Origin: Nitrosopumilus sp. K4 | GTDB lineage: Archaea; Thermoproteota; Nitrososphaeria; Nitrososphaerales; Nitrosopumilaceae | Assembly (NCBI RefSeq): GCF_018128925.1 | Contig: NZ_CP067007.1 | Coordinates: 1,156,164-1,220,163, forward strand | Reading direction: 5' to 3' | Length of the DNA: 64,000 nucleotides | Shown here: piece by piece, positions 8,479-20,911 of the stretch | Layout: every line of letters starts with the position of its first letter | Numbering within the stretch: the first letter of the stretch is position 1 | The notes under the pieces: generated by a model | Database searches by the model: none | What the model saw: only the letters and a program-made list of their open reading frames with translations | Told to the model about the DNA's origin: nothing | Translations under genes and position numbers: made by a program

Positions 8479-8501
8479 GTATAAATTTAGGCGTAGAATT
8501 G

Positions 8502-9335
8502 ATGAAAGCTCATCTATCGGTGTTTGCCTTATCTGCAATTATTATTGCAAGTATTGGAATGGCACCAGCATTTGGACAAATACAAGACCCGATCGTTGTT
8601 GCCACAGACAAGTCATCCTACAAAGAGGGTGAAACAATCTTGGTGACAGGAGAAGTCAAAGCACTTCTTGGTGGTGAAGCTCTAAGTCTCATTGTAACTG
8701 CACCAAACGGTAACATCGTTACTGTTGATCAGTTAACAGTTGGTTCTGATAAAAAATTCAGTACTGAGTTAACTGCAGGTGGTTCACTAATGAGAGCAGC
8801 AGGAACCTACACGATTACAGTCCAGTATGGAAACCAATCTCGAACAGCAGAAACCACATTTAGCTTTAGCGGTTCTTCAATGATCCCAAGCACTGGTACT
8901 GGTAAAGTTACCGGAACTCAGATTTCAATTGAGGGCTCTGATGAAATGATCGGATACAAGATCACAGGTGGAAAACTACTTAGTGTAACACCTGATGTAG
9001 ACGCAAATTCACTCATCATCGCTATCGAAGCAACAAATGACGGTACGCTAACCCTCACAATCCCAAGATCTATTATGGATGCTACAATTAATGGTGAAGA
9101 TGATACATTCTTCGTTTTAGTTGACGGGGAAGAAGTAGACTTTGAAGAAAAAACAACTTCAAAAGACAGAACATTAACCATAAACTTCCTAGCAGGTGCT
9201 GAGGAGATCGAGATTATAGGTACCTTCGTTGTTCCAGAATTTGGTACAATCGCAGTAATGATCTTAGCAGTTGCAATTATATCAATAATTGCAGTATCTG
9301 CAAAATCAAGACTTAGCATTATGCCAAGATACTAA
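8502..9335 (+). CDS. PEFG-CTERM secreted surface protein 1
   Basis: A 277-residue exported protein. It has an N-terminal signal peptide (about 25 residues, ending near APAFGQ) and an Ig-like beta-sandwich of the type DKSSYKEGETILVTGEV...GTYTITVQYG (about 30-120). A second beta domain follows (about 145-240). The C-terminus has VPEFGT, a hydrophobic helix and a basic end, the PEFG-CTERM signal thought to be cleaved by an archaeosortase. I start at ATG 8502, not the in-frame TTG one codon earlier, because the TATA-like box is 25 bases upstream. The tail is nearly identical to those of the next two genes. Role: cell-surface protein, ligand unknown. Confidence 0.85.
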   Translation: MKAHLSVFALSAIIIASIGMAPAFGQIQDPIVVATDKSSYKEGETILVTGEVKALLGGEALSLIVTAPNGNIVTVDQLTVGSDKKFSTELTAGGSLMRAAGTYTITVQYGNQSRTAETTFSFSGSSMIPSTGTGKVTGTQISIEGSDEMIGYKITGGKLLSVTPDVDANSLIIAIEATNDGTLTLTIPRSIMDATINGEDDTFFVLVDGEEVDFEEKTTSKDRTLTINFLAGAEEIEIIGTFVVPEFGTIAVMILAVAIISIIAVSAKSRLSIMPRY

Positions 9336-9336
9336 A

Positions 9337-9358
9337 TTTTCATCTTTTTTCTCTTTTT
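9337..9358 (+). terminator. T-rich terminator between PEFG genes 1 and 2
   Basis: Two oligo-T runs lie immediately after the stop codon at 9335. Archaeal polymerases terminate at such T tracts. The second run merges into the promoter of the next gene. Confidence 0.5.
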
Positions 9359-9373
9359 AAATATACATAAATA
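9354..9373 (+). promoter_or_regulatory. TATA promoter of PEFG gene 2, identical to that of gene 3
   Basis: The 20-base AT-rich block (T5, AAATATACATAAATA) starts exactly 45 bases before the ATG at 9399. The same 20 bases occur exactly 45 bases before the next gene's ATG. The TTTAAATA-like core fits the archaeal TATA consensus. Confidence 0.65.
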
Positions 9374-9398
9374 CCAAGATAGCTGGTGTTGAGATAGG

Positions 9399-10256
9399 AT
9401 GAATTTTAAACGTTCTACAACATCAATGGCACTAGCCCTTTTGGCACTGTCATTAATTTCAGTAACTTCAATTCAGCAAGATGCTTTTGCTCAAAGTATG
9501 GGTATGACAATTACCGCCACTGCAGCAAAAGGCTCAGACACAATATCAGTAAGTGGACAAACTGCATCAAAGGTCACAGATGTAACATTTAGAGTAACAT
9601 CTCCAAGTGGCAATAATGTAGTAGGTATTGGCCAAGTTTCACCAGATGAAAATGGTAACTTTGCCAAAGAATTCAGAGTAGGTCCAACATGGACAGAAAA
9701 TGGATTCTACAAAATAACAGCTATGCAAAGTGTTGGTTCAAACTCATTGTACACAATGTCTGTTCATGTTGAAGTAAAAAACGGAATGACTGCAAAAACT
9801 TCTGTAACCAATTCAAATATGGAGACAGGAATTTTCAAACCAGTCAATAACAACACAATAGAAAGAGGATTAGAAATCGAGGCAGAAGCATTGATCGGAT
9901 CCACAGAAATTGTAATTACTGGAACCACAGACAGAGTCAGTCAAGATGTCACATTGACAGTAACAGCACCAAACGGAAACAAAGTTTCTGTTGCACAAGT
10001 ATCACCAAGCATTAATGGTGACTTTGCAAAGACCATCGTTACAGGCGGTCCGCTATGGAAACAAGATGGATTCTATACTGTTACAGCAAAACAATTTGAA
10101 TCAGAAGATTATACAAAATCAATTCAAGTTGACATCAAAGAGGGAGTCGTAGTTCCAGAATTTGGTACAATAGCAGTAATGATCTTAGCAGTTGCGATCA
10201 TCTCAATTATCGCAGTATCTGCAAAATCAAGACTTAGCATTATGCCAAGATACTAA
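9399..10256 (+). CDS. PEFG-CTERM secreted surface protein 2
   Basis: A 285-residue exported protein. It has a signal peptide (cleavage near DAFAQ, about residue 32) and two tandem homologous Ig-like domains (about 33-125 and 155-245). Each domain carries V(T/S)xxxPxGNxVxxxxQVSPxxNGxFAK, then W and GFYxxTA. The C-terminus is the same PEFG anchor as in protein 1: VPEFGT, a transmembrane helix and an RLSIMPRY end. The anchor-coding DNA plus the 3' flank is identical over 125 bases to gene 3. Probably a cell-surface or S-layer-associated protein; function unknown. Confidence 0.85.
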   Translation: MNFKRSTTSMALALLALSLISVTSIQQDAFAQSMGMTITATAAKGSDTISVSGQTASKVTDVTFRVTSPSGNNVVGIGQVSPDENGNFAKEFRVGPTWTENGFYKITAMQSVGSNSLYTMSVHVEVKNGMTAKTSVTNSNMETGIFKPVNNNTIERGLEIEAEALIGSTEIVITGTTDRVSQDVTLTVTAPNGNKVSVAQVSPSINGDFAKTIVTGGPLWKQDGFYTVTAKQFESEDYTKSIQVDIKEGVVVPEFGTIAVMILAVAIISIIAVSAKSRLSIMPRY

Positions 10257-10273
10257 ATTCACAACTTTTTTCC
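10149..10273 (+). repeat. 125-bp exact direct repeat, copy A
   Basis: This copy covers the PEFG anchor codons, the stop codon and 17 bases of 3' flank. It is identical to 11084-11208. The equivalent segment of PEFG gene 1 (from about 9225) has several silent differences. Confidence 0.9.
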
Positions 10274-10276
10274 CAT

Positions 10277-10296
10277 TTTTTAAATATACATAAATA
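10277..10296 (+). promoter_or_regulatory. TATA promoter of PEFG gene 3
   Basis: The same 20 bases as at 9354-9373, again 45 bases from block start to ATG (10322). It directly follows the T-rich terminator of gene 2. Confidence 0.65.
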
Positions 10297-10321
10297 GAGA
10301 CATGCTCAAAACGCTAACAAG

Positions 10322-11191
10322 ATGAACATCCGTACGTCGTTCGTGCTACTAGCCGTTTTGACTGCAGTCGGTACTTTAACCATGTCATCAGCATATGCTT
10401 TACCACAAGCATGTCCTGATTGTGAGGGAGAATCTGCAATGACAGCAAGCAAAGTTTTGCGTCAAGAGCTCCCAGTCACTATTTGGACAGATAGTGAATC
10501 ATATGATCACAATAGCATGATTGAAGTTTCAGGCCAAGTAGCAAATATAGCATCTGGTTACCCAGTAACAATTACTGTGGTGAGTCCATTAAATTCAGTT
10601 GTAACAATTGCTCAACTACAAGTAAGTAGCGATGGAACATTTGGAACAACACTCAACACAGCTGGTGCAATGTGGAAATACGACGGTACCTATACCATCA
10701 AAGCTCAATACGGCGAAAACAAAAGCGACAAGGTCCGTGTTGAATTAGCTGGTGGTCAAGCATACAAACCAACTACCCCAACAACATCTGTAAAATGTGG
10801 TGCAAATAGCGTTGCAGTAGCAGATGGAAAATGTGTTAATTACACAATCACTGGAGGAATGGTCACTGGTGCAAAAGTTAACACTGACGATAATTCAATT
10901 ATCGTTAGAATTAGTGCAATGAATGATGGAACAATCACATTATCTCCATCCAAAGAAGTCCTCGACGGTGTCTTTATGGTACTTGTTGATGACCAAGAAT
11001 GGGATGATGTAGTTATTGATGGCAACAAAGTCACAGTAAGTTTCCTAGCAGGCACTGAAAAGATTGAGTTAATTGGTACATTTGTAGTTCCAGAATTTGG
11101 TACAATAGCAGTAATGATCTTAGCAGTTGCGATCATCTCAATTATCGCAGTATCTGCAAAATCAAGACTTAGCATTATGCCAAGATACTAA
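10322..11191 (+). CDS. PEFG-CTERM secreted surface protein 3
   Basis: A 289-residue exported protein. It has a signal peptide (cleavage near SAYA, about residue 26) and a short CPDC pair just after it. An Ig-like domain follows (about 50-145, WTDSESYDHNSMIEVSGQV... GTYTIKAQYG), then a domain with CGAN...GKC (possible disulfide) and NYTITGGMVTGAKV (about 155-255). The last 34 residues form the PEFG anchor, identical to protein 2. The second domain resembles that of protein 1 (YKITGGKLLSV). Likely surface-exposed; no enzyme motif seen. Confidence 0.85.
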   Translation: MNIRTSFVLLAVLTAVGTLTMSSAYALPQACPDCEGESAMTASKVLRQELPVTIWTDSESYDHNSMIEVSGQVANIASGYPVTITVVSPLNSVVTIAQLQVSSDGTFGTTLNTAGAMWKYDGTYTIKAQYGENKSDKVRVELAGGQAYKPTTPTTSVKCGANSVAVADGKCVNYTITGGMVTGAKVNTDDNSIIVRISAMNDGTITLSPSKEVLDGVFMVLVDDQEWDDVVIDGNKVTVSFLAGTEKIELIGTFVVPEFGTIAVMILAVAIISIIAVSAKSRLSIMPRY

Positions 11192-11208
11192 ATTCACAAC
11201 TTTTTTCC
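11084..11208 (+). repeat. 125-bp exact direct repeat, copy B
   Basis: Identical to 10149-10273. The copies are 935 bases apart, and the identity ends in the T-rich 3' flank. Confidence 0.9.
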
Positions 11209-11303
11209 ATTTTTTCATTTTCACATAGTGAAATAGCATTAACGTGTTTTCTATCACTCCAACTAGAGGATTCAAATATCAGAATTCAAGTCTTGAATTA
11301 ATC

Positions 11304-11462
11304 ATGGCATTCAAGAAAGGAATTCACAAATGTGTAGAATGTGAGAAGAAAAAGAAAGAAGATCCTGAAGATATGGGATTATGCAGCAAATGCAGTGCAG
11401 CAGAAACCCGACTTGAAAAAACAATGTACAAAGAAATGATAGATGAGGGAAGTTTTCCTTAG
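11304..11462 (+). CDS. Small zinc-ribbon-like protein, 52 residues
   Basis: A short, charged protein with two Cys pairs (CVEC near residue 9, CSKC near residue 30) separated by a Lys/Glu run. It looks like a small treble-clef or zinc-ribbon fold. I chose ATG 11304; an earlier non-ATG in-frame start at 11244 would add 20 residues without the Cys motif. It sits alone between PEFG genes. Function unknown; nucleic-acid or protein binding is a guess from the charge and Cys pattern. Confidence 0.65.
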   Translation: MAFKKGIHKCVECEKKKKEDPEDMGLCSKCSAAETRLEKTMYKEMIDEGSFP

Positions 11463-11541
11463 ATTTAGTCAAAATCAGTCTAAAAAGATTCCAAACTCGT
11501 AAAAATCAACTTTAATCTATTAGAAAAACTATCAGAAAACA

Positions 11542-11718
11542 TTGGAACAAGATGACAGGTATGAAACAGTAACAATTGAATCAAAAGTCAGAGAAGGAGT
11601 ATTTCATAAAGTCATTAAAGACTTGGAAACGGGAAAGGCTGTTTCATGTTCTTGCAAATGTTGGAGTAAAGGGAACAAACCTTGTGTAGGTATGAGAACT
11701 GTCGGTTTTGATAAATAG
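11542..11718 (+). CDS. Possible small Cys-rich protein, 58 residues
   Basis: An open frame begins at a TTG (11542) just after an in-frame stop and ends at TAG 11718. The product has an acidic/basic N-half (YETVTIESKVREGVF) and a C-terminal Cys cluster (CSCKCWSKGNKPC), which suggests metal binding, perhaps like CDGSH-type or small Fe-S proteins. A TTTAAT element lies about 30 bases upstream. The codon choice resembles that of its neighbours. The non-ATG start and small size keep confidence moderate. Confidence 0.5.
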   Translation: MEQDDRYETVTIESKVREGVFHKVIKDLETGKAVSCSCKCWSKGNKPCVGMRTVGFDK

Positions 11719-11813
11719 ATTCCAAACTGCAAGTATTGAAATTGTTGTAAATGAAGATTAGTCAATTTTTAGATAGTAAAAGAAATATACAAACATCCAA
11801 GATAGGATGATGT

Positions 11814-12614
11814 ATGAATAAGATTTTTTACATAGCAGTAATTTTATTTTCAATTTCATTTTTACCTGTTTTTGGTCAAACTAATCCAATTACAGTTCAG
11901 ACAGACGATAATAACTATGATGAAGGAGACACAATAGTAGTATCAGGACAAGTAGAAACAGTAGTAACTGGAACTCCCATTGTATTACAAATATTCTTTG
12001 AAGGAAACATGATAGATATTGCTCAGATCACAGTAGCCCAGGATGGAACTTACAGCCACACAGTTATTGCAGAAGGGCCTCTATGGAGCAAAGCAGGAGA
12101 CTATCTAATCAGAGCATCATTTGGGGAAGGAAACATTGCAGAATCAGAATTTAATTTTGCTCCAAAAACAGATGTACCTGAGACGACCAATATTTTCGAA
12201 GTCGATGCAGGAAGTTCAGGAACATTTGATGTAGAATATACAATCAAAGGCGGTTCTGTTAAAAACATGGTAATTGATCCGGATATTTTTGCATTAATAG
12301 TTCAAATAGATTCTGCAGATGAAGGAGTGATAACATTGGACTTGCCCAGAGAATTTATCGGTGCAGAAAAACAAGATGGAAAAGACGACCTTTTCATAAT
12401 ACTAATTGATGGAATCGAAGTCCCATACCAAGAATCAGTTACAAACTCAGATTCCAGAATAATCACAATTAATTTCGAGCAGTTGGATTCAGACATAGAA
12501 ATTATTGGAACATATGTTGTTCCGGAATTTGGTACAATTGTGATGATGATTCTCTTGGTAGGAATTGGAACTACAATTGCAATTTCTAGAAGTAAGTTTC
12601 AAGTAAGAGTCTAA
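11814..12614 (+). CDS. PEFG-CTERM secreted surface protein 4
   Basis: A 266-residue exported protein with the same design as PEFG 1. It has a signal peptide (about 20 residues, ending VFGQ), an Ig-like domain TDDNNYDEGDTIVVSGQV (about 27-118) and a second domain with YTIKGGSVKNMV (about 130-225). The anchor is VPEFGT, a helix and a basic tail. Its anchor differs from those of genes 1-3 (MMILLVGIGTTIAISRSK), so it has escaped the homogenisation seen in the others. A TATA-like AAATATACA lies about 27 bases before the ATG. The stop overlaps the convergent cysteine desulfurase gene by 4 bases. Confidence 0.85.
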   Translation: MNKIFYIAVILFSISFLPVFGQTNPITVQTDDNNYDEGDTIVVSGQVETVVTGTPIVLQIFFEGNMIDIAQITVAQDGTYSHTVIAEGPLWSKAGDYLIRASFGEGNIAESEFNFAPKTDVPETTNIFEVDAGSSGTFDVEYTIKGGSVKNMVIDPDIFALIVQIDSADEGVITLDLPREFIGAEKQDGKDDLFIILIDGIEVPYQESVTNSDSRIITINFEQLDSDIEIIGTYVVPEFGTIVMMILLVGIGTTIAISRSKFQVRV

Positions 12615-13771
12615 TTAAAAGAATATTTTTCCTTGAATGGAGAAACAGAACGCAATTCTTTAACGACATTTTTCAACACATCAACGGTTTGTTCAATTTC
12701 ATGTTGTGTGTTGTACACACCAATTGTTAATCTCAAAGAACCTGTAATTTCTTCATGAGAAAAACCCATTGCTTGTAAAACATGTGATGCTTTTTGAGTG
12801 TGGACAGAGCAAGCTGAGCCAGTTGAGGCTGCAATTCCATTTTCGTCTAATTTGATTATCAAATCTTCGCCATTAACTCCAAAAAATGTAAAATGTGCAT
12901 TACCAGGCAATCTATGTCCAGGATGACCATTTAATCTAGAATGAGGTATGTCATTCAAAACTTTTGAAACCAAATGTTCTCTGAGTTTGGTTATCACGGA
13001 AAAATTTTCTTCAAGATTTGATTTTGCAATCTCGCATGCCTTACCAAACCCAACAATGTTTGCAACATTTTCAGTACCAGAACGCATGCCATGTTCTTGA
13101 CCCCCACCTAAAATCACAGGATCTATTTCAATTCCTTTTTTGACAAATAATGCACCAATTCCCTTAGGACCATTAATTTTGTGAGATGAGATGGACAGTA
13201 AATCTATTCCTAGTTTTTTGACATCAAGGGGGATTTTTCCAACTGCCTGGACAGCATCAGTGTGAAAGAAAATGTTTTTCTCATGACAAACAGATGCAAT
13301 TTCTTGAATGGGTTGAATTGTTCCAACTTCATTATTTCCAAACATTACAGATACAAGTGAGGTGTTTTCAGAAATTTTGTTTTTTAATTCCAAAATATCA
13401 ATCAGGCCGTATTTGTCGACAGGCAAATACTCTACAGAAAAACCTATTTCTTCTAATTTTTTACACGGTTCTAAAATTGCATCATGTTCAATAGACGAAG
13501 TAACTATTGAAGAGCCAGGTTTTTGTAAAACAATACCACGTAATGCAGTATTATTTGATTCCGTACCTCCAGAAGTGAAAAAAATTTCTGAGGGTTCAGC
13601 ATTAATCAGTTCTGCAATTTGTTTTCTGGCCTTATCAATTGCTTTACGTGCCAAACGACCATATCGGTGAATAGATGAAGGGTTTCCATACTGTTCTTTC
13701 AGATACGGCATCATAGAAGTTAGAACTTCGTCATGAAGTTGGGTGGATGCGGCATTATCAAGATAGATCAA
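12611..13771 (-). CDS. Cysteine desulfurase (NifS/IscS family, PLP enzyme)
   Basis: The 386-residue class V aminotransferase-fold enzyme releases sulfur from cysteine as enzyme persulfide. Visible motifs: N-terminal YLDNAAST, FTSGGTESNN, the HTDAVQ block, the PLP lysine in SISSHKINGPKG and the catalytic Cys loop ASTGSACSVH. The length fits IscS/NifS. It is the last gene of a minus-strand larC-larE-desulfurase set; its ATG overlaps the larE stop by 4 bases. That coupling suggests it feeds sulfur to LarE as well as to general Fe-S or thio-modification needs. Confidence 0.93.
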   Translation of the reverse strand: MIYLDNAASTQLHDEVLTSMMPYLKEQYGNPSSIHRYGRLARKAIDKARKQIAELINAEPSEIFFTSGGTESNNTALRGIVLQKPGSSIVTSSIEHDAILEPCKKLEEIGFSVEYLPVDKYGLIDILELKNKISENTSLVSVMFGNNEVGTIQPIQEIASVCHEKNIFFHTDAVQAVGKIPLDVKKLGIDLLSISSHKINGPKGIGALFVKKGIEIDPVILGGGQEHGMRSGTENVANIVGFGKACEIAKSNLEENFSVITKLREHLVSKVLNDIPHSRLNGHPGHRLPGNAHFTFFGVNGEDLIIKLDENGIAASTGSACSVHTQKASHVLQAMGFSHEEITGSLRLTIGVYNTQHEIEQTVDVLKNVVKELRSVSPFKEKYSFN

Positions 13772-14565
13772 TCTGCAATCACGTTTATTTTTCCAGGTTT
13801 GTATCCATCTTTGTCAATTTCAATACTTGAAAAACCAACAAGACGAAGTTTATCAAAAATTTGATTGATCATATCAGGATTGAAAATTGGAATATCATTT
13901 TTTTCTACTTCAATTTTTGCCAAACCACCAATATCTCTAACCCTAACTTGTCTAACTTTGGTCATTTGTTTAACAACATTTTCACCATATTCAATTCGTG
14001 CAAGTCTTTCTGCAGTAATTTGTTGACCCCAAGGGATACGAGATGCTAGGCAAGAGTTAGAAGGCTTATCAAAAACAGACAGTCCGACTGATTTTGCAAA
14101 ATCTCTGATTTCTTTTTTTGAAAATTCAGTTTCTACAAGTGGATTTCTAATTCCATTTTTTTTCAATGCCTCCAGTCCAGGCCTATAATCTCCCAAATCG
14201 TCAATATTTGTGCCATCAACGATTACATTAGCACCATAATTTCTTGCAACATCTAGCAAATGTGAGCCCAATTCCAACCTGCAGTAGAAACAACGATTAG
14301 AATCATTTCTGATAAATTCTGGGTTTTCTAATTCATCATAATCAATCAAAATATGAGATATTCCAATTTCAGAACAAATCTGTTTTGCAGAATCAAGTTC
14401 TTCATTTGACAGAGTCTTGTAATCAGCAGTAACAGCAATTGCAGAGTCACCTAATTTTTTATGAGCAGCATAAGCAACTAATGCACTGTCAACACCGCCT
14501 GACAGTGCAACAATGACTTTGTTTTTATCATTAAACCAATTAATCAAATTCTCAAGTTTAGACAT
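13768..14565 (-). CDS. larE: LarE-type ATP-dependent sulfur insertase for the nickel-pincer cofactor
   Basis: A 265-residue PP-loop ATPase. The ATP motif SGGVDS is at residues 22-27. Cysteines lie at 92 and 95 (RCFYC) and at 172 (PSNSCLASRIPWG, the site equivalent to the sacrificial Cys of Lactiplantibacillus LarE). LarE adenylates the pyridinium dicarboxylate intermediate and converts its carboxylates to thiocarboxylates. Three such cysteines match the [4Fe-4S]-carrying LarE subgroup and not the single-Cys sacrificial type (family knowledge plus inference). I start at ATG 14565, one base after the larC stop; a longer non-ATG frame overlaps larC. Confidence 0.88.
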   Translation of the reverse strand: MSKLENLINWFNDKNKVIVALSGGVDSALVAYAAHKKLGDSAIAVTADYKTLSNEELDSAKQICSEIGISHILIDYDELENPEFIRNDSNRCFYCRLELGSHLLDVARNYGANVIVDGTNIDDLGDYRPGLEALKKNGIRNPLVETEFSKKEIRDFAKSVGLSVFDKPSNSCLASRIPWGQQITAERLARIEYGENVVKQMTKVRQVRVRDIGGLAKIEVEKNDIPIFNPDMINQIFDKLRLVGFSSIEIDKDGYKPGKINVIAD

Positions 14566-14566
14566 T

Positions 14567-15790
14567 TTATTCCTCAATCTTTTCAATTTCTTTTCTAATT
14601 AGTGATTCTACTTGCTTTATTGACATGTTTAATTTTTCGGAAACATGTTTCAAATCTTCAAATTCAATCTTAAAATCAGATTTTCCCTTAAATGATGCAG
14701 TTTTGTATTTTATCAAAAAGGACTGACCTTCAAGAGAAACATGGGTTTCGTTTATCTCCCTAGGCAAGATAAATCGTTTTGAAGTAGAAACACGGATTCC
14801 CAGAGTCCCAGTTTCAGAAATTAAAGTATCAACAATATCATGCATCGTATTATCATCACAAATTACAGATACCAAGTTAGTTGGCCTTCCTTTTTTAGTA
14901 ATTCCATGATATATTGATACGTCTTTAGCTCCTTTTTTCATAATTGTCTCAATCAGATTTCCTAAAATTTCTCCAGAAACATCATCAACATTAGTTTCTA
15001 AAATTTTTACTGTGTCCATTTCAGTGGAGTTTTTTTGAGTCCCTCTAACAATTTTTAAAACGTTTGAAAAGGAATCAAAATCCTTTGTTCCTGCACCATA
15101 TCCAATTGATTGAATTTCCATGAGAGGATAATACTCTATACAGGTTTTTGAGAGATTTGCCAATATGCAAGCACCAGTAGGGGTTGTGAGTTCATCTTTT
15201 ACTTGCCCGCCCTGAATCAACAAGCCAGAGTTTTTTAAGATTTCAAGAACAGCTCCAGCGGGATTTGACATTGTTCCATGAGAAAACGTAACACTACCAC
15301 TACCAACGCAAACAGGCAAACATACAATGGTCTCATCAAAAAATCCTAAATCATCTGATGCAATTGCAGTTCCAACAATATCAATCAAAGTATCCATACT
15401 TGAGGCTTCATGAAAGTGAACTGATTCGGCTGAAACGCCATGAATTTTAGATTCAGAATTTATCAGAGTATCAATACAAGATATTGCAAATTTTTTTGCA
15501 GGTTCAGATAGGCCCAAATCATTTACAGAGTCAGATATTGCTTTTTTGATTTCAACGCCCTTTCTTTCATGTACATTTTCATTAATTTTTAAAACCAGTT
15601 GGGTGGAATGAACTCCATGTTTTTCAGTTTTTTTAAAATCAATTTCAGATATAGTTGAATTTGGTAAAAATTTCTCAGAAGACATTATTCCATTAATGAT
15701 CTTTGTTTTATCAGCGCCAATATCCACCAAAGATGAGAGAATCATGTCTCCAGAAATTCCAGCTATTTGTGGATCTATGACAATAACCAT
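14567..15790 (-). CDS. larC: LarC nickel-insertion protein (CTP-dependent cyclometallase)
   Basis: This 407-residue protein of the LarC family inserts nickel into the pyridinium thio-acid precursor to complete the nickel-pincer nucleotide. Family marks are the start MVIVIDPQIAGISGDM, SVHFHEASSMDTLIDIVG, the GTMSNPAGAV and ELTTPTGA blocks and the C-terminal ETNVDDVSGEILG domain. It is one continuous frame, with no programmed frameshift of the kind that splits larC1/larC2 in some bacteria. A TTTATAT box at 15814-15820 lies about 25 bases before the ATG, so the transcript is probably leaderless. Confidence 0.92.
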   Translation of the reverse strand: MVIVIDPQIAGISGDMILSSLVDIGADKTKIINGIMSSEKFLPNSTISEIDFKKTEKHGVHSTQLVLKINENVHERKGVEIKKAISDSVNDLGLSEPAKKFAISCIDTLINSESKIHGVSAESVHFHEASSMDTLIDIVGTAIASDDLGFFDETIVCLPVCVGSGSVTFSHGTMSNPAGAVLEILKNSGLLIQGGQVKDELTTPTGACILANLSKTCIEYYPLMEIQSIGYGAGTKDFDSFSNVLKIVRGTQKNSTEMDTVKILETNVDDVSGEILGNLIETIMKKGAKDVSIYHGITKKGRPTNLVSVICDDNTMHDIVDTLISETGTLGIRVSTSKRFILPREINETHVSLEGQSFLIKYKTASFKGKSDFKIEFEDLKHVSEKLNMSIKQVESLIRKEIEKIEE

Positions 15791-15881
15791 AGTCTGAAAA
15801 TCAGCAAAAATGCATATAAATTCTGTCTAAAATTAAATGAATTTCATTAGATTTAATTATTGAAAATTAAGAGCGATTAGC
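15791..15881. promoter_or_regulatory. Divergent promoter region of larC and malate dehydrogenase
   Basis: A 91-base divergent spacer. The minus-strand TATA-like TTTATAT (15814-15820) serves larC, and the plus-strand TTTAATTA (15852-15859) lies about 25 bases before the mdh ATG. Both transcripts would be nearly leaderless and could be co-regulated from this short region. Confidence 0.55.
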
Positions 15882-16796
15882 ATGATTACTATTATAGGCT
15901 CAGGAAAAGTAGGCGGAGATGCAGCATTATTTTCTGCATTAAAGAGATTAGATGATCAAATTTTGCTATTAGATGTTGTAGAAGGGCTTCCACAAGGAGA
16001 AGCAATGGATATCAACCACATGTTATCAGAGCAAGGAATAGATGTCGAAGTAAAAGGCTCAAATGATTATGCAGATATGAAGGGCTCAGACGTTGTTGTT
16101 GTTGTTGCAGGATCTGGAAGAAAACCAGGAATGACAAGAATGGACCTTTTGAAAATTAATGCAACAATTGTAAAAAGCGTGGTTGAAAATATCAAAAAAT
16201 ATGCAAACGATTCCATGATTATACCAGTAACAAACCCTCTAGACCCAATGGCCTACATTACCTACAAAGTATCAGGTTTTGATAGAAGCAGGGTTTTTGG
16301 AATGGGAGGAATGCTTGATTTATCAAGATTCAGACAATTTATTCATGAAGCAACAGGGCATTCTCGTGATTCAATCAGAGCACTTGTGATTGGAGAGCAT
16401 GGAGAAAATATGCTTCCATTACCAAGATTTTCATCAGTATCAGGAATTCCATTATCATCATTTTTGCCTAAAGAAAAACTAGACGAACTTGTAGTAAATA
16501 CAAAGCAGGTAGCAGCCAAAGTTATTGAATTGAAAGGTGCAACAGTTCATGCACCAGGAAATGCAATATCTGCAATAATTGAATCAGTAGTAAGGGACAG
16601 AAAGCAAGTCATCCCAGTTGCAACTTATCTTGACGGGGAGTATGGCTATTCAGATGTAACAATAGGAGTTCCAGCAGTAATTGGAAAGAACGGTGTTGAA
16701 AAAATCATAGAGCTGGATCTAAACGATGAAGAGAAAAAAGTGTTTGATACAGCAGTTCAAAGTGTAAAGACTGCAATATCAGGCATTGAAATCTAA
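15882..16796 (+). CDS. mdh: Malate dehydrogenase (LDH-like type)
   Basis: The 304-residue NAD(P)-dependent enzyme interconverts malate and oxaloacetate. It shows the Rossmann motif GSGKVGG (about residues 6-12), the substrate loop [10 protein letters not shown] (Arg at the position that selects malate, where lactate dehydrogenases have Gln), NPLDPM, and the catalytic-His block [11 protein letters not shown]. The length is typical. It is divergent from larC and followed 34 bases later by larB, so it lies inside the nickel-pincer cofactor neighbourhood. Confidence 0.93.
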
Positions 16797-16830
16797 GCCT
16801 TTTTTTATTCATTAAGCAGATTACAATCTA

Positions 16831-17610
16831 ATGGAAATTAATGAAATTCTTGAATCCCTAGAATCAGGAAAGATAACAGCTAAAAATGCAAAAAAACTAT
16901 TATCACTTTATTCAATTGAAGAGATTGGAGATATTGCAAAAATCGACATTAACAGAAAAAACAGAAGAGGAATACCAGAGGTAATTTTTGCAGAAAATAA
17001 GGAATTAGACGAAATAAAAAAGATCATAAAGAAAACAATAGACAAAACAAATTCAGTTGTCATATCCAGGATTAACAAAAAAGATTATCAAAAAGTAGTA
17101 TCATTTGTAAAAAAATCAAAATTCAAGTTAAAGACAGGAAAAAAGACATCAACGGTGTTGTTGTTCAAAAAACCCATTAAATTCAAAGGCGGTAAAGTGG
17201 GAATAATTACGGCAGGAACCTCAGATATAGGCGTGGCAGAGGAAGCTCGCTTAATGTGCGAGGCAATGAATTGCAAATGCATTACAAGTTTTGATGTAGG
17301 AGTAGCAGGAATTCAAAGAGTCTTTCCAATTTTGAAAAAAATGATAGAAGAAGAAGTAGACTGCATCGTTGTAGTTGCAGGAATGGAAGCAGCTCTTCCT
17401 ACTTTGGTTGCGTCTTTAGTAGATATCCCAGTGGTGGGCGTACCTGCATCAGTAGGATATGGGTATGGAGAAAAAGGAATTGGTGCTCTTGCATCAATGC
17501 TACAAAGTTGTGCATTGGGATTATCAGTTGTCAACATAGACAACGGTATAGGAGCTGGAGCAATGGCAGCAAACATTGCAAATAGAGCATCTAACAAAAC
17601 TAAACCATAA
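16831..17610 (+). CDS. larB: LarB, pyridinium carboxylase/hydrolase for the nickel-pincer cofactor
   Basis: The 259-residue protein has a C-terminal PurE-like (AIR carboxylase) domain: ITAGTSDIGVAEEAR, VVVAGMEAALPTLVASL, VGVPASVGYGYGEKG and the end block NIDNGIGAGAMAA. LarB carboxylates nicotinic acid adenine dinucleotide and hydrolyses the phosphoanhydride, the first cofactor step. The N-terminal ~110 residues are the usual LarB extension. It follows mdh on the same strand. No larA-like apoenzyme is in the window. Confidence 0.92.
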   Translation: MEINEILESLESGKITAKNAKKLLSLYSIEEIGDIAKIDINRKNRRGIPEVIFAENKELDEIKKIIKKTIDKTNSVVISRINKKDYQKVVSFVKKSKFKLKTGKKTSTVLLFKKPIKFKGGKVGIITAGTSDIGVAEEARLMCEAMNCKCITSFDVGVAGIQRVFPILKKMIEEEVDCIVVVAGMEAALPTLVASLVDIPVVGVPASVGYGYGEKGIGALASMLQSCALGLSVVNIDNGIGAGAMAANIANRASNKTKP

Positions 17611-17689: not shown

Positions 17690-19267
17690 TTGTCGGGCAA
17701 ACGTATTGTATTGACTGCAGATCGTAGTTTAATGACAAATTACAGAGGAAATTTTCTTTATGGATTTATTGCCTGTGGGCCATACGAGGTTCTTCCAGAA
17801 TGGGTATTTGATAAAGTGTTTTGTCCTGCAGTAGAAACAGACCCAATTACAGGAGAAGTCAAAGTAGCCCAAGTTGGATTAAGAAGAGTAGAAAGTGCAC
17901 TATTACAAGGATACAACCGAGATGAAGTATTTGTAGCAAATCCAGAAATGTTAGAAAAATCAATTGGTCCAGATACCAAAGTGGTTGGAATTAATGTTAT
18001 GGATCCTCTAGGAATGGCCCCAGTTACAACTACAATGTCACCAGAAAAATTATCCTATGTTGCTATGAAATTTAAAAAAATGTGTGCAAGTATAATTCAG
18101 TTAAAGAAAAAATATGATTTTCATGTAGTAGTTGGTGGCAACGGGGCATGGGAGCTTGCAAAATCAGACAGAATGAAGATTCATGGAATTGACACAGTTG
18201 TTGTAGGCGAAGCAGATGAATTAGCTTTAGATTTGTTTAACGATTTAGAAAAAGGAGATGCCCCTGAATTAATGCATTGTTTTGTAAAAAACATACAAAA
18301 CATCCCAGAGATTGAAGGACCTACAATTAATTCACTAATTGAGGCCATGAGAGGATGTGGTAGAGGATGTGACTTTTGCGATGTCAACAAAAGATCAAAG
18401 AAAGATTTACCAGTAGACAGGCTTCAAAGAGAAGCAAAAATTAACTTAGATTATGGATTCGATTCTGTTTGGTTGCACTCAGATGAGATGCTACTTTACG
18501 GATGCGATAACAGAGATTTCATACCAAACAGAGATGCAATTACAGACCTTTGGAAGAGCCTTAAAGGATTAGGAGCTAATTTTATTGGAACAACACATAT
18601 GACATTTTCAGCAGTAGCAGCTGATCCAGTGTTAATGCAACAAATTTCAAAAATTAACAAACAAGATGAAACTGGAAGATGGCTTGCAACTAATTTAGGA
18701 ATTGAAACTGTAGCACCAAAGATGGTCAAAAAACATTTGGGTGTAAAGACAAGACCATTTGCACCAGAAGAATGGGGCAGTGTTGTAAGAGAAGGTGCAA
18801 AAATTCTAAATGAAAATCATTGGTTCCCTGCAGCAACTATCATCATAGGTTGGCCAGATGAAACACCAGATGATGTTCAATATACGATTGATATGATGAG
18901 TGACTTTAGACAGATGAATTTTAGAGGTTTAGTTGCACCATTATTGTATCAAGACTTTAGTGAGAAAAACTCAATGCATTTTGGAAATCTCAATGAGGCA
19001 CAGTTTACCCTCTTTTGGAAATGCTGGGAGAATAATCTCAGGGTAATCAACGATATCATCCCAATCATCCTGAGAAACAAAACATATGGTCCACCAATGA
19101 AAGTTTTCATGTATGGAATTTTGAAAGCAGGTACTTGGGCAATAATGAGATACTTGCGTGGATTATGCAAAGATCTTTTCAACGGCAGAACGCCCGATGA
19201 GATCATAGACAAGTATGCCAGAAGCAGATCAGTGTCTGCACCAAAAATTCAAACAAAGAAATTATAG
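17690..19267 (+). CDS. B12-binding-domain radical SAM protein, candidate GDGT ring synthase (Grs-like)
   Basis: A 525-residue protein. The N-terminal part (about 60-200) looks like a cobalamin-binding Rossmann domain (VVGINVMDPLG...FHVVVGGNGAWEL). The radical SAM cluster motif CGRGCDFCD (C-x3-C-x2-C) is near residue 225. A partial TIM barrel (DSVWLHSDEMLLYG, GTTHMTFSAVAADP, IIIGWPDETPDD) and an all-helical C-terminus follow. The usual B12 DxHxxG histidine motif is not evident. Size and architecture match archaeal Grs enzymes that build cyclopentane rings in GDGT lipids; that role is inference, and other radical SAM methylase-like functions remain possible. Start is TTG; an ATG at 17680 is out of frame. 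Confidence 0.75.
   Translation: MSGKRIVLTADRSLMTNYRGNFLYGFIACGPYEVLPEWVFDKVFCPAVETDPITGEVKVAQVGLRRVESALLQGYNRDEVFVANPEMLEKSIGPDTKVVGINVMDPLGMAPVTTTMSPEKLSYVAMKFKKMCASIIQLKKKYDFHVVVGGNGAWELAKSDRMKIHGIDTVVVGEADELALDLFNDLEKGDAPELMHCFVKNIQNIPEIEGPTINSLIEAMRGCGRGCDFCDVNKRSKKDLPVDRLQREAKINLDYGFDSVWLHSDEMLLYGCDNRDFIPNRDAITDLWKSLKGLGANFIGTTHMTFSAVAADPVLMQQISKINKQDETGRWLATNLGIETVAPKMVKKHLGVKTRPFAPEEWGSVVREGAKILNENHWFPAATIIIGWPDETPDDVQYTIDMMSDFRQMNFRGLVAPLLYQDFSEKNSMHFGNLNEAQFTLFWKCWENNLRVINDIIPIILRNKTYGPPMKVFMYGILKAGTWAIMRYLRGLCKDLFNGRTPDEIIDKYARSRSVSAPKIQTKKL

Positions 19268-19933: not shown

Positions 19934-20911
<978 letters not shown>

Follow-up and report, generated by a model that had tools for sequence, protein, structure and literature searches.

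What use does an archaeon have for the genes of nickel-pincer nucleotide (NPN) synthesis when the gene for LarA, which represents the sole enzyme family known as a user of this cofactor, is not beside them? The question is raised by a stretch of 64,000 nucleotides from Nitrosopumilus sp. K4 (contig NZ_CP067007.1, positions 1,156,164 to 1,220,163), called the window below, in which larB, larC and larE are gathered around a malate dehydrogenase gene, mdh. The results make it probable that these genes are a complete NPN module maintained by selection, and that they most likely serve an enzyme that does not belong to the LarA family as now recognised. A sequence-only reading of the window had proposed an NPN enzyme acting on malate or a related hydroxy acid, either encoded elsewhere or of an unrecognised type.

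The lar block and its predicted products

The window genome (G000) is one contig of 1,645,909 bases, 99.94% complete. In what follows G-numbers are genomes, L-numbers fetched loci and f-numbers families in the comparison set, f1 being the window family. The block and its immediate neighbour are as follows.

12611..13771, minus strand: NifS/IscS-like cysteine desulfurase (TIGR03402, E 1.8e-156, 520.7 bits against a cut-off of 530.75)
13768..14586, minus strand: larE, encoding a three-cysteine PP-loop sulfur insertase (TIGR00268, E 1.2e-80)
14567..15790, minus strand: larC, nickel insertion, two domains fused in one frame (PF01969, E 1.1e-108)
15791..15881, no strand: intergenic region between the divergent larC and mdh, holding two conserved core-promoter-like elements
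15882..16796, plus strand: mdh, malate dehydrogenase (MDH), dependent on nicotinamide adenine dinucleotide (NAD) and like lactate dehydrogenase (NCBIfam NF004863, E 1.5e-115)
16831..17610, plus strand: larB, nicotinic acid adenine dinucleotide (NaAD) carboxylase/hydrolase (NCBIfam NF033503, E 7.6e-74, with a PF00731 match)
17690..19267, plus strand: radical SAM / B12-type protein, 3' of larB (PF04055, E 4.5e-9), a neighbour and at most a putative member of the block

On the minus strand the desulfurase gene overlaps larE by 4 bases, and larE, taken from its first listed start, overlaps larC by 20 bases; this start is a TTG, with an ATG at codon 8. larC and mdh diverge with 91 bases between them, and mdh and larB follow each other on the plus strand with a gap of 34 bases. 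Coordinates and family matches therefore agree with the arrangement first described, in which larC, larE and the desulfurase gene overlap or abut on one strand, divergent from mdh and larB. The absence of larA from the block was likewise borne out by family searches of the window cluster, and the five-gene cluster is not a lactate racemase (lar) operon.

Each of the three Lar proteins carries the features expected of its family. The LarE translation contains SGGVDS and NRCFYC...SNSC (CXXC-C), the PP-loop and three-cysteine motifs, and the protein matches structures 5udq and 8cnz. Both LarC domains are present (NCBIfam LarC1, E 5.8e-49; LarC2, E 9e-31), residues 9-350 matching PDB 12bi. LarB has the AIRC/PurE-like domain and a conserved cysteine, Cys227, aligned with Cys221 of PDB 7mj0, which we take to be catalytic. 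The MDH contains the Ldh_1_N and Ldh_1_C domains and matches the malate dehydrogenase PDB 7aob (E 8.1e-92). For the desulfurase 'NifS-like' is the safe label and 'NifS' is not, its score being under the NifS cut-off.

From these predicted functions we infer that NPN is made in these archaea. LarB would carboxylate and hydrolyse NaAD, the three-cysteine LarE would add two sulfurs by way of a [4Fe-4S] cluster recharged by the co-encoded desulfurase, and LarC would insert nickel to give NPN. Given that LarE is of the CXXC-C [4Fe-4S] type, it probably receives its sulfur from the desulfurase whose gene overlaps its own. The CXXC-C LarE of Thermotoga maritima is a [4Fe-4S] protein that acts catalytically in vitro when paired with a cysteine desulfurase (PMC9283937). 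The CXXC-C cysteines are common to both proteins and a desulfurase can feed the T. maritima enzyme; however, the desulfurase genes of T. maritima are far from larE whereas here one overlaps it (PMC9283937). By this analogy the sulfur supply for LarE is probably built into the operon. The same three families and key motifs make up the LarB/LarE/LarC pathway of Lactiplantibacillus plantarum, from which the window block differs in having no larA, a LarC in one frame, a three-cysteine LarE, and desulfurase and mdh genes in the cluster.

In the larC/mdh intergenic region, inspection by eye of the window and 11 same-family sequences showed, with small variants, a AAAATGCATATAAATT-like element nearer larC and a TAGATTTAATTA-like element nearer mdh. 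Neither was evident in the two f42 larC/mdh intergenic sequences compared. From their position and conservation the elements may be core promoters.

Distribution of larBCE and LarA

The same 200 class genomes were searched for LarC, LarA, AmoA, LarB and LarE and the results counted by eye, with LarB, LarC and LarE scored as present at E below 1e-30 and LarA as absent when PF09861 gave no match at E 1e-3. AmoA was found in 139 of the 200. LarB, LarC and LarE without a PF09861 LarA were found in 133 of these 139 genomes, all 31 single-contig ones among them, and retention extends across four amoA-bearing families. LarC alone was found in 135. Four amoA-bearing drafts of 70-350 contigs (G266, G350, G354 and G361) have neither LarC nor a strong LarB or LarE match, as though they lacked a single island. 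Two of the 139, G296 and G344, have LarA.

In f45-f49, which belong to the same order and have no AmoA, LarBCE was present in 9/9 genomes and LarA in 7/9 (not G339 and G364). The seven f43 genomes have no AmoA, LarC or LarA; their LarE matches are weak, at the PP-loop level, and the one LarB match (G264, 5.3e-18) is weak also. The simplest history we can infer from these distributions is that the ammonia oxidizers lost LarA and kept the synthesis genes. The order's ammonia oxidizers would then have kept the module almost throughout, canonical LarA having been mostly lost, or never acquired. Since the module is kept and LarA is mostly missing, the most likely user of the cofactor is an enzyme that does not belong to the LarA family, and such a non-LarA NPN user is accordingly predicted.

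The survey also turned up the reverse orphan. In f50 (G200, G203, G206, G209 and G212) LarA is present and family searches found neither LarB nor LarC, and in f7 (G006, G015, G039 and G055) LarA is present and no LarC was found. In f46, L085:754-2754 encodes a 666-residue protein with LarA fused behind a cytidylyltransferase domain (PF02348), and L084 contains a 655-residue open frame that includes LarA.

Conservation of the gene neighbourhood

Synteny was examined in lar regions fetched from 33 genomes of the order (f1, f2, f42 and f44-f49), of which f44 G280 and f48 G364 run into contig ends and G301 was not classed. mdh adjoins larB, within 0.5 kb, in 19 of the 33: 11 same-family genomes, seven of f42 and f45 G319. 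In six more, five of the six f2 genomes and f47 G357, only fixA-fixB-fixC lies between mdh and larB, and the sixth f2 genome, G305, has fixABC-larB without mdh. The identity of fixABC was verified in L099 and L107. Among the single-contig amoA-bearing genomes, with coordinates read by eye from the searches, larC and larB are on opposite strands with 1.15-1.8 kb between them in 27/31 (exceptions G192, G300, G301 and G304), a spacing that is room for one mdh-sized gene. In G300 and G304 (L164 and L165) larB has moved off larC yet stays with mdh. The desulfurase gene adjoins larE in 10/11 same-family regions and also in regions of f2, f42 and f44.

The surroundings of the block vary. In f1 it is flanked by rpoB/rpoH and PEFG-CTERM genes, and in f42 by ribosomal-protein or acetyl/propionyl-CoA carboxylase genes; carboxylase genes are found in f2 and f44 too (verified in L155). 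As the divergent block is kept across several families while its flanks change, the arrangement is not due to chance. Synteny of mdh with the lar genes, which the sequence-only reading had suggested should be looked for in relatives, thus holds across several families. Outside the class, f10 was searched genome-wide for LarC and LarA only and has LarC with no LarA over the cut-off; here larC is near sucC-sucD in 4/4 regions (sucCD identity verified in one) and near mdh in 3/4.

Other neighbours may be recorded here. The radical SAM protein (17690-19267) is strongly conserved and has no named function; its gene is in 11/11 same-family regions, at 83-98% identity, and lies away from larB in one (L096). 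In the window, runs of secreted-looking proteins flank the lar block at 8499-12614 and 19934-20911; the protein at 11814-12614 has a PEFG-CTERM domain and the three preceding proteins share a similar C-terminal tail. In L234 and L235 (G184 and G112) larC and larE, with larB in L235, are near nickel/cobalt importer-like genes, presumably of the CbiM type.

LarX, a LarA-fold protein outside the window

No PF09861 match above the cut-off was found in the whole window genome; the best (E 0.125) has a stop codon inside it. This search was rejected as sufficient proof of absence on its own, given that a search of the genome with nine LarA and LarA-like proteins as queries gave, at E 6.5e-12, a 360-residue protein that we call LarX (G000:C1:1222115-1223197, minus strand; also L173:1492-2574). 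LarX starts 1,952 bases to the right of the window and ~48 kb from the lar cluster. The full genome thus has no canonical larA and one distant homologue seen by the more sensitive search.

Pfam scored LarX at 22.4 bits for LarA_C, below the cut-off of 25, and found no match to Lar_N. Its best NCBIfam match was the LarAH6 malate racemase NF052593, over the C-terminal half, at 2.4e-15 and 56 bits where the cut-off is 500. Aligned by hhalign, LarX and LarA match end to end (99.9%, E 1.9e-31). An AlphaFold model of a Nitrosarchaeum LarX ortholog (pLDDT 67, pTM 0.66) has LarA structures as its sole strong Foldseek matches. Through this ortholog model LarX can be compared with LarA structures at Z up to 19.1 over 323 residues with a root mean square deviation of 4.2, the next unrelated structure scoring 6.3. 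By homology and predicted structure, then, LarX has the LarA fold.

In LarA, Lys184 tethers NPN and His174 and His108 act in catalysis (PMC11770544, PMC9283937). All 24 rows of the LarX alignment, of which one is a duplicate, have T, V, S or I in place of Lys184, Asp in place of His174 and a gap where His108 would be; the His200 column is misaligned even among the LarA rows. LarX therefore lacks the NPN tether and both catalytic histidines and does not have the residues of an NPN-dependent racemase. The LarX alignment matches 182 of the 200 class genomes and 138 of the 139 with amoA, and also 7/7 f43 genomes (one protein read) and genomes of f50, f52 and f54; the f50 matches may be that family's LarA. 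As f43 lacks the cofactor pathway, LarX does not follow the pathway. Without the cofactor lysine and the catalytic histidines, and present where larBCE is not, it is a poor candidate for the NPN user.

In the window genome LarX adjoins pyrE and a gene for an S2P-like protease, both named from sequence, and its Asp125 is invariant. LarA-like intermediates occur in f10 at L109 and L110 (G122 and G057), with His174 kept and Lys184 replaced by His; these genomes have LarC and no LarA over the cut-off.

DUF362-ferredoxin proteins

Weak PF09861 matches in nine relatives (L108 and L111-L118) proved to be DUF362 proteins with ferredoxin motifs, one of them confirmed by Pfam. Four of the nine genomes have LarC without LarA (G014, G145, G030 and G231), two have both (G080 and G148) and three have neither (G022, G083 and G169). 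The pattern H-x3-G-x-G-G-x2-K-x15-H, which spans His174, Lys184 and His200 of LarA, was found in 30 of the 1,672 open reading frames of at least 200 residues in all fetched loci, 20 in LarA loci and 10 (one a repeat) in DUF362-ferredoxin loci, a count that is not independent because the latter loci were fetched for the pattern region. It is not universal in LarA, being missing from L032 and L078. Alignment of DUF362-ferredoxin with LarA by hhalign gave a probability of 19% and E 0.0012, the His/Lys/His columns nevertheless being aligned, and a comparison with solved structures gave ferredoxin-type matches in the best 60 of 94 rows.

In 80 chosen genomes of the phylum outside the order, DUF362 (E 1e-12) was found in 19/26 with LarC only, 24/25 with LarC and LarA, 6/9 with LarA only and 0/20 with neither, the last group having been drawn from genomes with no PF09861 match and excluding the DUF362-bearing G022, G083 and G169, so that its true figure is not zero. 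DUF362 was thus present in 43 of the 51 LarC-bearing genomes of this sample. The co-occurrence is an association only, as the lineages are clumped. From their motif spacing and this association the DUF362-ferredoxin proteins are candidates for a family of NPN enzymes that carry iron-sulfur clusters of their own. As the NPN user of the ammonia-oxidizer clade they were rejected: PF04015 is found in 15 of the 200 class genomes and not in G000, and among amoA-bearing genomes only G271 has a strong DUF362 match (1.9e-30), those of G296 and G344 lying on LarA genes. A literature search for a link between DUF362 and nickel turned up only DUF362 as an outgroup, plus unrelated work. At L124:10503-11399, in the LarA-less genome G161, a DUF362 protein without the strict motif is encoded directly downstream of larB-larC.

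Discussion

The sequence-only reading is best upheld in its 'unrecognised type' form; its malate or 2-hydroxyacid role comes from gene context only, and 'encoded elsewhere', if taken to mean a hidden LarA, does not hold up so far because LarX has no cofactor lysine and occurs where larBCE is absent. Of the two results that would have told against that reading, neither was obtained: PF09861 showed no canonical larA in the genome, and relatives do conserve the linkage to mdh. The context, mdh in most genomes, fixABC in f2 and f47 and sucCD-mdh near larC in f10, suggests that the NPN user has a role in C4-dicarboxylate or 2-hydroxyacid chemistry. It may be speculated that a FixABC link would suit a dehydrogenase passing electrons on rather than a racemase. 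A C4-hydroxyacid oxidoreductase of a new NPN class, its active site unrelated to LarA, transferring hydride from a malate-type substrate onto NPN and electrons to FixABC, would explain why larB lies with mdh and, in some families, with fixABC; we consider this proposal unlikely.

Several observations weigh against a non-LarA user tied to malate chemistry. G296 and G344 show that LarA is compatible with the ammonia-oxidizer lifestyle, and another highly diverged LarA could escape PF09861 as LarX did. The mdh link is absent in G346 of the window family, in f2 G305, in f46 (0/2) and in f49 (0/1), and could be positional. Nor is the desulfurase-larE pairing absolute, the desulfurase gene of L095 not being beside larE. 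It is quite possible, if not our preferred view, that the link with mdh is regulatory or positional only and that NPN serves an unrelated enzyme: larC and mdh each have their own putative core-promoter-like element, the MDH looks canonical, and the radical SAM and carboxylase genes too are regularly found nearby in parts of the order, so that shared function is not required. The mdh-larB pair is intact, however, where larB has left larC (G300 and G304), and f10 provides a second lineage with larC near sucCD-mdh.

That LarX is the NPN user after all, binding the cofactor in a new way, has in its favour full-length homology to LarA, a matching predicted fold (from a model of pLDDT only 67), a malate racemase as the best, far sub-threshold, match of its C-terminal half, and near-universal occurrence with amoA. 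We think it improbable, given the replaced lysine and histidines in every row, the ~48 kb that separate it from the lar cluster in the window genome and its presence in all f43 genomes, which have no LarC and at most weak LarE or LarB matches. The pathway might instead make something other than NPN, such as a thiolated nucleotide for metal handling or one carrying another metal. Ammonia-oxidizing archaea are known for copper enzymes, but LarC carries both domains of the known nickel-inserting LarC and in most f45-f49 relatives the same module is accompanied by LarA, so that such a product is very unlikely. Finally, the absence of LarA from most of the clade would also be seen if the lar genes were relics kept by chance after its loss; this is barely credible for three genes retained almost universally in four amoA-bearing families, with intact motifs in the window copy. 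The reading of the block as a selected NPN module serving a non-LarA enzyme is thus the one we retain.

This reading has a precedent. Some 15% of over 1,000 genomes, including those of many cyanobacteria, have larB, larE and larC without larA, non-LarA NPN proteins have been predicted, and LarB/E/C from cyanobacteria, most of which have no LarA, yielded NPN when tested qualitatively in E. coli (PMC11796402). The cyanobacterial larBCE case resembles the present one in that the pathway is present, a LarA-like gene is mostly absent and a non-LarA user is predicted (PMC11796402). It differs in that here the case is archaeal, nearly universal in amoA-bearing genomes and clustered with mdh, and in that DUF362 was found in the S. 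elongatus control and not in G000. In ammonia-oxidizing archaea LarA is reported to be restricted to sediment clades, with which LarA in G296 and G344 agrees; the available passages of that paper are silent on larBCE (PMC8397731). A distinct 'lactate racemase' cluster has been noted in one soil lineage of these archaea (PMC10579303); PF09861 had no match in the sampled f42 genomes, which may or may not include that lineage, and the cluster might be LarX. larBCE has been noted in Haloferax (PMC8305020). Among the papers listed by literature searches, judged by titles and abstract openings and with subscription literature mostly outside the scope, no description of larBCE in ammonia-oxidizing archaea was seen. 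Genomes with larBCE and no larA were therefore already known; the clade-wide archaeal case, the mdh/fixABC linkage and LarX appear to be new.

Recognition of LarX removes a trap, as a distant LarA-fold protein is open to mislabelling as a lactate racemase. The clade is a testable case for non-LarA NPN proteins, being made up of abundant organisms with small genomes in which the module is linked to central carbon genes. Identifying the NPN user would bring one more nickel enzyme to light in a group that is central to the nitrogen cycle.

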